Shown here: piece after piece, positions 3,853-61,975 of the stretch | Position numbering within the stretch: the stretch's first letter is position 1 | Layout of the letters: every line of letters begins with the position of its first letter | From: Spirosoma fluviale | GTDB taxonomy: Bacteria > Bacteroidota > Bacteroidia > Cytophagales > Spirosomataceae | NCBI RefSeq assembly: GCF_900230225.1 | Contig: NZ_OCNH01000006.1 | Span: 62,001-126,000 of the forward strand | Reading direction: 5' to 3' | DNA length: 64,000 nt | Notes under the pieces: generated by a model | What the model was told of the DNA's origin: nothing | What the model saw: only the letters and a program-made list of their open reading frames with translations | Databases searched by the model: none | Made by a program: the position numbers and the translations under genes

Positions 3853-3862
3853 GTTTTTTTAA

Positions 3863-3964
3863 GAAGTGAGGAGTTGGGAGCGAGGAGTGAGGAGGGCTGA
3901 CCGCACCGGCGGACCGGCGTTAGCAAAAAACATGCGTCAGCAACTCCTCACTCCTCGCTCCTAA
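3863..3964. repeat. Dispersed hairpin repeat family B, copy 1
   Basis: An imperfect inverted repeat between trpE and trpG. Purine-rich GAGGAG units on the left pair with ACTCCTCACTCCTCGCTCC on the right. The loop carries GACCGCACCGGCGGACCGGC, whose reverse complement recurs in the second copy inside uvrA (24377-24495). The element lies in an otherwise tight operon and would be transcribed with it. Confidence 0.88.
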
Positions 3965-22570: not shown

Positions 22571-25500
22571 ATGACTCAGACTACGGAAACCGAACGCTTT
22601 AGTTCCGTTGACCAGCTCGACCCCAAACAGTTCATTATTATTAAAGGGGCGAAAGTACATAATCTTAAAGGAATTGATGTTGCTATTCCACGCAACAAAT
22701 TAGTTGTCCTGACCGGGCTGTCTGGTTCCGGCAAGTCATCGCTGGCGTTCGATACGCTCTTTGCCGAAGGCCAGCGGATGTACGTCGAAAGCCTGAGCAG
22801 CTACGCCCGGCAGTTTCTGGGGCGGATGGAAAAGCCCGAGGTCGAGTACATCAAGGGGGTGTCGCCCGCTATTGCCATCGAGCAGAAAGTATCGACCCGC
22901 AACCCCCGCTCAACAGTAGGCACCTCCACTGAAATTTACGATTACCTGAAGCTGCTCTTCGCCCGATCGGGAACAACCTACTCGCCTGTTTCGGGTCACG
23001 AAGTTCGAAGGGATACGGTTACGGACGTTGTCAACTTTATGTATGCGTATGAGGCTGGTCAGCGGGTGATGATCATGGCACCCTTGCGCATCCGCGAAGA
23101 CCGAACACTGCCCTACGAACTCAATATCCTGCTCCAGAAAGGCTACACCCGTATTGTGGCGGATGGCCGGGTAGTGCAGATCGAAGATATTTTGGAGAAT
23201 GAAGAGTTGCGAGTTAAGAATGAAGAATACAACAGTGAGTATGCTTCACTCTTAACAGATCACGCTTCACTGGCTTCACTCGAAATCCTCGTTGATCGCG
23301 GAACGGTGCTGTATGATGACAATGGTAATCCGGATGAAGACAACCAGTACCGTTTCTCAGACTCCGTACAAACGGCGTTCAGCGAAGGAGAAGGCACTTG
23401 CCGGGTGGATGTTGTGGGCAAAGAGTCGCGGGTTTTCTCCGATAAGTTTGAGCTCGACGGGATTATCTTCGAAGAGCCAAGCGTAAACCTGTTTACGTTC
23501 AACAATCCCTACGGGGCCTGCCGCCGGTGCGATGGCTTCGGCAAGGTACTGGGTATCGACCCGGACCTGGTCGTTCCCGATAAAAATCTGTCGGTCTTTG
23601 AAGGGGCCATTGCGCCCTGGCGGAGCGAGAAAATGAGCGAAGAGTTTTTGAAACCACTGCTCAAAAACGGAATCCGGTTCGATTTCCCGATTCATCGCCC
23701 GTACAAAGACCTTACGCCCGCCGAGCAGGAGCTGCTCTGGACCGGAAATAAGTATTTCGACGGAATCAACTCATTCTTTGCCTTCGTCGAAAGCCAGACG
23801 TTTAAGGTGCAGTATCGGGTGATGCTGTCGCGCTATCGGGGCAAAACGACCTGCCCGGAATGCCGGGGCTCGCGGCTGCGGAAGGATGCGGGCTACGTAA
23901 AAGTAGGCGGGAAGTCCATTACCGACCTTGTGCTGCTGCCGCTGACGCACGTTACGGCGTTTTTTAAAGATCTGGAACTGCCCGCACACCAGCAGCAGGT
24001 AGCCAACCGAATACTGATCGAGATCCGTAACCGGCTGGATTACATGGAGCGCGTTGGGCTGGGCTACCTGACACTTAACCGTCTGACCAATACGCTGTCG
24101 GGGGGCGAATACCAGCGCATCAAGCTGGCTACGTCCCTTGGCTCGGCGCTGGTGGGTTCCATGTACATTCTGGACGAACCTAGTATTGGGTTACACCCCC
24201 GCGATACCCAGCGGCTGGTGAGTGTTCTGGAAACCCTCCGCGACATGGGCAACACCGTGATTGTGGTGGAGCACGAGGAAGAGGTCATGCGTGCCGCCGA
24301 CCAACTCATCGACATTGGCCCCGACGCCGGTTCGCTGGGTGGGCACCTCATGTTTCAGGGGACATGGCAGGATATTAAGGAGTTAGGAGCGAGGAGCGAG
24401 GAGCGAGGAGTTGCTGACGCCGGTCCGCCGGTGCGGTCAGCAAAAACGGATGCGTCAGCAACTCCTCACTCCTCGCTCCTCGCTCCTAACTCCTTCAAAA
24501 ATTCACATACCATCGACTTCCTTACGGGGCGGGAAACCGTTCCGGTGCCGACTTTCCGGCGGAAGGCGACTAGCTTTATCGAACTGAAGGGCGCTCGGGA
24601 GAATAACCTCAAGAGTGTGGACGTGCGGTTTCCGCTCAACACGCTAACGGTTGTAACGGGCGTGTCGGGTTCGGGTAAGAGTACGCTGATCCGAAAAGTG
24701 TTGTTCCCGGCCCTGATGCGGCAACGGGGCGAAGGCACCGAAGAGGCCGGTAAATTTGACAGTCTCGGCGGTTCGCTCGACCGGATTTCGTCGGTTGAAA
24801 TGATCGACCAGAACCCAATCGGTAAATCGAGCCGGTCGAATCCGGTTACGTACATCAAAGCCTACGATTACCTCCGGCAGGTAATGGCCGACCAGCCCGT
24901 ATCGAAATCGCGCGGGTACAAGCCCAGCCATTTCTCATTCAACGTCGATGGCGGGCGCTGTGAAGTATGCCAGGGCGAGGGCGAAGTAAAGATCGAAATG
25001 CAGTTCATGGCCGATATTTACCTCAAGTGCGAAGGCTGTGGCGGCAAACGCTTCAAGCAGGAAGTGCTGGAGGTAACGCTGCATGACAAGAACATTTCGG
25101 GCATCCTGGACATGACCGTCGACGAGGCCATTGAGTTCTTCCGCAAAGTCGACAACAAAATGGCGGATAAGCTCCAGCCGCTGCAGGATGTAGGACTAGG
25201 GTACATCGGTCTGGGACAGTCGGCTAATACGCTGTCGGGTGGAGAAGCCCAGCGCGTAAAATTGGCATCGTTCCTGGGCAAAGGAAACCCGAACAAAGGG
25301 AGCACGTTGTTCATCTTCGACGAACCCACAACGGGGCTGCACTTCCACGATATTCGTAAATTACTATCGGCCATCAACGCGCTGGTCGATCAGGGCGACT
25401 CGGTCATCATCATCGAGCATAACATGGAAGTCATCAAAAACGCCGACCATATTATCGACATCGGTCCCGAAGGTGGCGAAACGGGGGGCTATATCACCTT

Positions 25501-25576
25501 CACCGGCACACCCGAAGAGATGGTAAAGCTGGACGACAGCAACCACACTGCCCGTTACCTTAAAGGAAAAGTGTAG
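22571..25576 (+). CDS. uvrA: Excinuclease ABC subunit A with repeat-derived insertions
   Basis: DNA damage recognition ATPase of nucleotide excision repair. Two ABC halves are complete: Walker A GLSGSGKS at 49-56 and GVSGSGKS at 697-704, signature [10 protein letters not shown] and [10 protein letters not shown], and Walker B with [11 protein letters not shown] and [11 protein letters not shown]. The zinc modules (CRRC/CPEC and CEVC/CEGC) are intact. At 1001 residues it is about 50 longer than usual. Residues 603-642, in the linker between halves, are encoded by a full copy of hairpin repeat B. Residues about 208-236 also look repeat-derived. Catalytic motifs are untouched, so it is probably functional. 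Confidence 0.96.
23197..23270. repeat. Degenerate in-frame inverted repeat within uvrA
   Basis: 13-bp arms GTTAAGAATGAAG (23213-23225) and CTTCACTCTTAAC (23244-23256), one mismatch, with further partial complementarity outside. The translated segment ([16 protein letters not shown]) lies where other UvrA proteins have a short loop before the strand LVDRG. Confidence 0.5.
24377..24495. repeat. Dispersed hairpin repeat family B, copy 2, inside uvrA
   Basis: 44-bp arms (24377-24420 and 24452-24495) that match with a single mismatch, separated by a 31-bp loop containing CGGTCCGCCGGTGCGGTCAG. The loop and the arm ends match the intergenic copy at 3863-3964 in inverted orientation. The insertion keeps the reading frame and has no stop codon. 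Confidence 0.93.
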
Positions 25577-25591
25577 TTATTCAGTTAATGA

Positions 25592-25652
25592 AGTTTCCTG
25601 TAAGGCTGAATAAATAACTCACTTATTCAGCCTTACAGGAAACTCTTTTTTT
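25592..25652 (+). terminator. Strong intrinsic terminator after uvrA
   Basis: A perfect 22-bp stem (25592-25613 with 25623-25644) with a 9-nt loop, followed by CTTTTTTTG. It lies 16 bp after the uvrA stop codon. Confidence 0.92.
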
Positions 25653-48943: not shown

Positions 48944-48966
48944 CCTAGTTATAAAACTGCCCTTTT

Positions 48967-49016
48967 AAACGTACAACTCCTAACTACTTCAACTAGTAAT
49001 CAGGAGTTGTACGTTT
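48967..49016 (-). terminator. Hairpin downstream of the plug-like lipoprotein gene
   Basis: Perfect 15-bp arms AAACGTACAACTCCT / AGGAGTTGTACGTTT with a 20-nt loop, 15 bp past the stop codon at 49031. The T-tract is short. Confidence 0.6.
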
Positions 49017-49030
49017 ACGTAATAAACGTT

Positions 49031-61790: not shown

Positions 61791-61975
61791 ACATGGGCAA
61801 GGGGCAAGGGGAAGATGGCATAGGGCTTGGGGCAAAGGGCATAGGGTCCGGGGCAGGGGTATAGGGCATTAGGAGCGGCAGCATGCTAATCCAATCATAG
61901 GCGACATTCCCTATGCCCCCTGCCCATTGCCCTATACTCCCTGCCCCGAACCCGCTGCCCGTTGCCATGCATCTA
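61791..61975. repeat. Degenerate inverted repeat (family D)
   Basis: GGGCAAGGGGC/GGGCATAGGG-type units on the left pair imperfectly with TGCCCTATACTCCCTGCCCC-type units on the right. It fills the space between ruvX and the mocA-like gene and covers the last codons and stop of the latter. Confidence 0.78.

Follow-up and report, generated by a model that had tools for sequence, protein, structure and literature searches.

Coding palindromes have been described in Rickettsia and Wolbachia, where multi-copy elements lie in frame in conserved genes and are tolerated by the proteins (PMC2229807), and orthologues have been found with different RPE groups at one site or at neighbouring sites (PMC3767692). 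REPs are reported within repair genes of several phyla, among them uvrA (in Opitutus terrae and Thioalkalivibrio), uvrB and recB, with recB copies of two Xanthomonas placed at much the same position; REPs inserted inside other palindromes and CGTC repeats in Bacteroidetes are described in the same report (PMC3733652). Arrays of the heptamer TAACTGA, made of tandem 7-bp units, are patchily distributed in Bacteroidetes (PMC4679880), and the mitochondria of Nematomorpha carry perfect coding inverted repeats, some at shared positions, for which template switching was proposed (PMC6649704). With Rickettsia RPEs and REPs inside uvrA as precedents, coding palindromes are already known as a kind, and location in a repair gene outside Rickettsia, which the first-pass annotation had pointed out as distinctive, is not a first (PMC3733652). 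A search of the mostly open-access literature revealed no account of palindromes lying in frame in genes of Spirosoma or Bacteroidota.

The window is the whole 64,000-nucleotide stretch of Spirosoma fluviale DNA (source genome, G000) that was analysed. Its features, and the other genes of the source genome that hold family copies, are listed in Table 1.

Table 1 Coordinates of the repeat, its host gene and further family copies
Feature	Positions	Strand	Remarks
uvrA (excinuclease ABC subunit A), host gene	22571..25576	+	1001 aa, open frame
Palindromic repeat, GGAGYKA heptamer arms	24377..24495	none	UvrA residues 603-642
Left arm	24377..24420	+	Purine-rich heptamers GGAGTTA/GGAGCGA, terminal core TTGCTGACGC
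Loop	24421..24451	none	31 nt
Right arm	24452..24495	+	Reverse complement of left arm, one mismatch
Second uvrA site	23200..23282	none	Decayed AGAATGA/AGAGTGA-type palindrome coding 27 residues
Intergenic copy of same family	3862..3964	none	Inverted-repeat and heptamer-pattern searches
MiaB, source genome			In-frame family copy; TIGR01574, 430 bits
Alpha/beta hydrolase			In-frame family copy; PRK10985 210 bits, under cut-off 267; Pfam Hydrolase_4, Abhydrolase_1
DUF4011/AAA_11 protein, source genome			In-frame family copy
FG-GAP/UnbV_ASPIC protein (L233)	G000:C6:144600-147700		In-frame family copy

The product of uvrA matches TIGR00630 at 1046 bits, above the cut-off, and has homologues among solved structures (3pih, 9gxk and 2r6f); its best matches among named sequences are UvrA proteins of Spirosoma. 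The palindrome totals 119 bp, its arms of 44 nt each are 98 % complementary, codon 603 starts at nucleotide 24377 and codon 642 contains nucleotide 24495. Structure 3pih aligns to UvrA residues 22-602 and 644-999 with five chain residues between the blocks, which places the insert at the junction of both ATPase halves. The first-pass annotation had described an in-frame palindrome with these arms and this single mismatch, translated between the two ATPase halves, and both statements were borne out. The loop and its left border contain GGTCCGCCGGTGCGGTCAGC, and a similar stretch was seen by eye in the opposite orientation in the uvrA of another genome, G027. The heptamer pattern has 9 matches in the window against 0.18 expected, and none of 100 shuffles reached 9; at the cut-off, 56 palindromes were found in 400 kb of contig C7 (one of them a run of N, leaving 55) and none in one shuffled 100-kb stretch; and the RNA fold of the uvrA palindrome has an energy of -103.3 kcal/mol (z = -15.5). 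On these three counts the palindrome is not a product of chance. An AlphaFold2 model of UvrA from 28 sequences had a mean pLDDT of 72.4, with residues 612-642 below 50; since the model is middling and conserved parts also score below 50 (nine further stretches, some conserved, and 157 residues overall), it only suggests that the linker is disordered. A UvrA paralogue with 46 % identity had no insert at its junction in three translations (L352-L354). Directly 3' of the uvrA stop codon, a strong hairpin at 25592-25644 is a likely terminator, and a scan of the window against Rfam at gathering scores gave tRNA as the sole match.

At least 101 BLAST segments of the source genome match the uvrA element, with 40 of the 88 first candidates scored, and the heptamer pattern at up to two mismatches has 339 genome matches against 217 for the reversed control pattern. 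The 56 clusters examined, at about 54 places, were taken from the scored BLAST candidates, from the approximately 100 listed of these 339 matches and from the 400 kb of C7. Both arms are present in 49 of the 56, spanning 57-182 bp, and in all 49 the purine arm precedes the pyrimidine arm. A family member is about 100 bp long; its 7-bp units, rich in purines, usually lead into a GCTGAC-type core, which is followed by a loop and the reverse complement, and many copies share the core TTGCTGACGC or GGCTGAC plus a variable loop. The uvrA element is one of roughly 50 family copies, mostly outside genes, and the intergenic copy paired with it in the first-pass annotation was recovered. Counting copies inside coding sequences, as proposed there, gave in-frame insertion at five of about 54 places, with at least 50 codons of open frame on either side (uvrA, MiaB, alpha/beta hydrolase, DUF4011/AAA and FG-GAP); the parallel with Rickettsia RPEs that had been drawn is likewise supported. 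The FG-GAP/UnbV_ASPIC protein has two in-frame inserts, by peptide of the GGAG and GGGCAG families. In the 400 kb of C7, 5 of the 55 palindromes lie wholly within a called ORF, and of these the uvrA palindrome alone has more than 60 codons on either side, therefore coding copies are a small minority. Also in the window are a heptamer-like palindrome with its pyrimidine arm first (48966-49017), inside an ORF of 141 codons that starts with TTG and is itself doubtful, and an imperfect palindrome of GGGCATA/GGGCAG units adjoining a gene (61831-61966), of the unit type seen at the G016 and G023 uvrA junctions.

Because the 7-bp unit is coprime with the codon, a tandem array encodes the same cyclic heptapeptide in all three frames (GARSEER for GGAGCGA, SLLAPRS for its complement). 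Tandem GGAGTGA, GGAGTTA, AGAGTGA or ATAATGA gives one stop or more in every 21 nt of the purine strand, therefore coding copies need mixed or CGA units. Some reading is open in 22 of 45 non-coding copies. The stop-free unit GGAGCGA was not significantly enriched in coding copies (12 of 26 units vs 90 of 286, Fisher p 0.13), and an adaptation of coding copies to avoid stops was rejected on that basis.

UvrA is present in all 36 genomes of the genus, and its junction was read with one anchor pair in 33, the dropped rows being G008 and G020, whose linkers misfit the anchor, and G028, whose gene is truncated. Both sides lie in one stop-free frame in 33 of 33 anchored genomes, and the linkers of G008 and G020, read separately, are also open. 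Junction length is 45-132 nt (median 72) in the 33 genomes and 21-93 nt (median 30; 30 nt or less in 23) in 43 anchored named relatives, whose lengths were measured 3 nt longer. These relatives belong mostly to other Cytophagales genera (L145 is labelled Spirosoma fluviale); the Spirosoma hits L112-L116 were excluded, and 32 of 80 named loci gave no anchor. A palindrome score of 10 or more was found at none of these 43 junctions. Within the genus, the GGAG family occupies the junction in G000 and G009, with a decayed GGAG element in G027; G032 has perfect 28-bp arms of AGAGTGA/AGAGTTA units; G022, G015 and G007 have ATAATGA-type units; and G023, G016, G014, G006, G024 and G035 have GGGCA-type units. 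These labels are approximate, since units can be as little as one or two bases apart and two positions of the GGAG pattern are free; G011, G016 and G031 could be assigned elsewhere. By shuffle test, 18 of 33 junctions carry a family trace and 15 have no significant trace, and 8 of 33 passed a strict palindrome test, defined as a score of at least 10 with at most 1 of 60 shuffles equally high.

An assembly slip is ruled out, because a related element occupies these codons in G009, a separate genome, and a decayed one does so in G027; nor is the insert an ancestral linker kept with diverged DNA in all relatives, given that other species have other palindromes or shorter linkers. Both doubts had been raised with the first-pass annotation. 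BLAST segments of the site-element families number 57 in G000, 53 in G009, 39 in G032, 32 in G022 and 31 in G007, each in its own species. No second copy of the G023 uvrA linker was found in its own genome, and the idea that every uvrA copy is tied to a resident family was rejected, as it fails for G023. In G032:C1, uvrA (L062) occupies two frames, with the break near residue 345 and away from the inserts; either the sequence is in error there or the gene is broken.

The second uvrA site falls in the UvrA_inter domain (PF17760, residues 149-281 of the window's UvrA), and in the source genome its IR score of 12 was equalled by none of 200 shuffles. G032 has an intact, clear palindrome there, near residue 219, as a second copy in the same gene. 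Elsewhere in G032, 13 of 18 stretches fetched around other matches gave a palindrome of its uvrA-element family, making 15 with the two in uvrA; only the uvrA pair lies within a long open frame, and three more run into the end of a called ORF. Near residue 200, the uvrA of G026 (L050) has a tandemly doubled 30-bp unit (GQNAASPAGR/GRNAASPTGR), and short GGPTGRQ-like inserts related to it are present there in many species.

The miaB and hydrolase sites were each read at 30 loci, with 6 of 36 genomes dropped for each and the hydrolase sites of G022, G033 and G011 taken with a second anchor. All 30 sites of each gene are stop-free; stops flagged inside three of the gene matches are terminal stops. 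At miaB, after NVDSYKW, the GGAG family is found in G000, G009, G027, G030, G032 and G022 among others, an ATGATGA type in G006, and other C-rich palindromes in G011 (score 30) and G029; G008 and G020 have no palindrome (54 nt). The hydrolase site, before the HGLEG motif, holds GGAG in G000 and G009, AGTGAAGAGTG in G003 (score 33) and G011, ATAATGGATAATGA in G021, G001, G022, G007 and G032, GGGCAG in G014 and G035, and GATGA in G006 and G010, and is short (36 nt) in G015 and G017. Shuffle tests gave family traces at 20 of 30 miaB and 18 of 30 hydrolase sites, with none at 10 and 12, respectively, and the strict palindrome test was passed at 11 of 30 and 14 of 30. At the DUF4011/AAA linker, 9 of 22 anchored genomes have a palindrome (p 0.01 or less, score at least 10), and 8 of 30 of these helicase loci gave no anchor. 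Across the genus, at least five unit types replace one another at a single site, and G032 alone has three families in three genes (AGAGTGA in uvrA, GGAG in miaB, ATAATGA in the hydrolase).

On a UvrA tree built without the variable sites, the minimum number of family switches is 7 at uvrA, 8 at miaB and 10 at the hydrolase, counted over labelled genomes only (17, 19 and 17; G032 lies outside the tree), on a quick tree with 11 of 31 inner branches starred and with no shuffled-label control. In this tree G009 and G027 are sisters and G000 lies outside (support 89 and 98), and fourfold sites differ at 85 of 450 between G009 and G027, 145 of 446 between G000 and G009, and 163 of 450 between G000 and G027. 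Of the 88 bases of the uvrA arms, 4 differ between G000 and G009; set against the fourfold differences of these two genomes, the arms look younger than the species split. The G027 element is decayed, with its inner core in the other orientation by eye. Since the same element type occurs in all three genomes, the site was probably occupied before they parted. The first-pass suggestion of a recent insertion therefore probably does not hold for occupation of the site, and agrees with the state of the present arms, whose divergence between G000 and G009 is far below that of neutral sites. In a single search with the G000 uvrA copy, a copy elsewhere in G000 scored 119 bits (81 %) and the uvrA counterpart in G009 scored 114 bits (81 %). 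Judged from these comparisons, plain descent with neutral drift does not fit the arms; later re-insertion, or re-copying from the resident population, would fit, and constraint is a further possibility. Among 35 sites of the source genome with a readable orthologous place in G009, a palindrome is present there at 26 (18 similar in sequence, the uvrA site among them, and 8 different) and absent at 9, against a background of 51 of 205 intergenic intervals; part of the intergenic conservation may reflect terminators. A nested element at 65877 of C7 shares its outer GGAG arms and differs in its core.

We regard the repeat, with a probability of about 0.8, as a mobile or copied, roughly neutral element whose translation yields a flexible linker and which has been replaced time and again at sites that permit it. 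It belongs to a multi-copy family, stands in frame, is exchanged for other families at the same site and has arms less diverged than neutral sites; conservation of the frame points to translation in the cell, and movement by an enzyme or by conversion is probable, as is neutrality. Most copies stand outside genes, and a few would have landed where the protein tolerates extra residues, there remaining in frame and being transcribed and translated as a probably flexible linker. Most coding insertions would presumably be purged by selection, with those at junctions and loops persisting in frame. Successive families would then arrive at, or copy into, the few permissive sites (the uvrA junction, miaB after NVDSYKW, the hydrolase before HGLEG and the DUF4011/AAA linker), and older ones would decay or be overwritten. 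The most likely effect on the protein is neutral to mildly harmful.

The chief competitor is renewal in place, in which the arms or loop of an old palindrome are rewritten by template switching or by conversion with dispersed copies and nothing new is inserted. The near identity of the G000 and G009 arms, beside the decayed element and flipped core of G009's sister G027, is what such rewriting would leave, and nested cores are consistent with it. So is the 17-bp stretch CGGGGCCGCCCGGCGGT, symmetric in both miaB arms of G027 (L263) and present in the right arm only of G022 (L266), a distribution that perhaps reflects arm-to-arm copying. Switches between families of different units, however, need more than such copying, and symmetric variants also pre-exist elsewhere as ready-made copies (the G000 helicase site), so that renewal in place is a possible account that we think rather unlikely to be the main one. 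It is improbable that the hairpin itself is selected, as a stem-loop of the mRNA or DNA, between the halves of uvrA and midway along miaB, that slows translation or tunes expression and for which any palindrome serves, so that families swap. The very stable fold, the low divergence of the arms, same-site replacement by other palindromes and the excess of palindromes at orthologous G009 places, eight of them different in sequence, would all be expected of it. Yet 25 of 33 uvrA and 19 of 30 miaB sites failed the strict palindrome test, the short sites of miaB (G008, G020) and the hydrolase (G015, G017) are free of a hairpin, and intergenic conservation can be due to transcription termination. 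An ordinary fast-evolving flexible linker of low-complexity DNA, with palindromes as coincidences or slippage products, would suit the sites without a family trace at uvrA, miaB and the hydrolase, but is very improbable: a core common to many intergenic copies contradicts coincidence, and the shuffle tests, the strict arm polarity (49 of 49) and the recurrence of the same families at four unrelated genes all speak against it.

We put forward tentatively, and with less weight than renewal in place, that a palindrome already standing at a permissive codon serves as a landing pad which new families insert into or copy over, giving cassette-like linker slots. The content of a slot would then follow whichever repeat family is active in the species, and the frame-independent heptapeptide might ease in-frame replacement. 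As to what moves the repeat, the source genome has eight Y1_Tnp (PF01797) genes (L064-L071), and the heptamer pattern, which misses TTA units, was found in the 1.5-kb flanks of none of the eight, so that these transposases were rejected as an evident mobiliser but may yet play that part. The flanks of seven of the eight hold other palindromes (e.g. GACAGCATCTTGCTGTC and CGACCGTCCCGGTCG), which look like REP/RAYT pairs alongside the heptamer families. Spread by plasmids was rejected as well, as the search gave no plasmid match (near records were possibly left out). No clear target-site duplication was seen when filled and empty sites were compared by eye.

The part that looks new is the heptamer families together with the dense switching of families at the same site. 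The known kind is thereby extended by coding palindromes that are built of heptamers and come from a genus of Bacteroidota. The same protein slots, differently filled or short in over 30 related genomes, form a replicated natural experiment in which selfish DNA as a source of protein sequence, the neutrality of linkers and the mover of orphan palindromes with no evident transposase become testable. With different palindrome kinds at the same tolerant spots, proteins of related species carry different extra linkers, and a heptapeptide linker in a predicted protein, RSEERG/SLLAPRS for example, can turn out to be a translated repeat.

Compared with known systems, the Spirosoma repeats resemble in kind the Rickettsia RPEs and Wolbachia palindromes, which are likewise about 100-150 bp long, present in many copies and in frame in conserved genes; here the palindrome is 119 bp long, 49 of 56 clusters are two-armed and five genes of the source genome carry an in-frame copy. 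The likeness is one of kind; Spirosoma belongs to a different phylum, and its arms consist of tandem 7-bp units. Intragenic REPs of the GTAG and CGTC types are also multi-copy palindromes, mostly intergenic with some in genes (PMC3733652), and as described there are 20-40 bp units with short stems and a GTAG/CGTC end tag, whereas the Spirosoma elements span about 60-180 bp with long heptamer arms. GTAG/RAYT REPs have a 5-13 bp stem and flank a Y1 (RAYT) gene, in contrast to arms of 44 bp in uvrA and a location away from Y1 genes. CGTC REPs have an 8-9 bp stem, a 4-5 bp loop and an unpaired CGTC end, whereas the GCGTC of the Spirosoma core is paired inside a long stem and may be there by chance. 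MITEs combine terminal inverted repeats with a target-site duplication, and the Spirosoma element has inverted repeats with no clear duplication by eye. TAACTGA arrays are direct repeats; in the main genome most of them directly precede start codons, and their forward translation contains stops (PMC4679880). The Spirosoma elements, in contrast, are palindromes inside genes. Heptamer repeats are also known from cyanobacteria as STRR. In Nematomorpha, both arms encode conserved amino acids (PMC6649704), whereas the Spirosoma arms contribute an extra linker and are part of a dispersed family.
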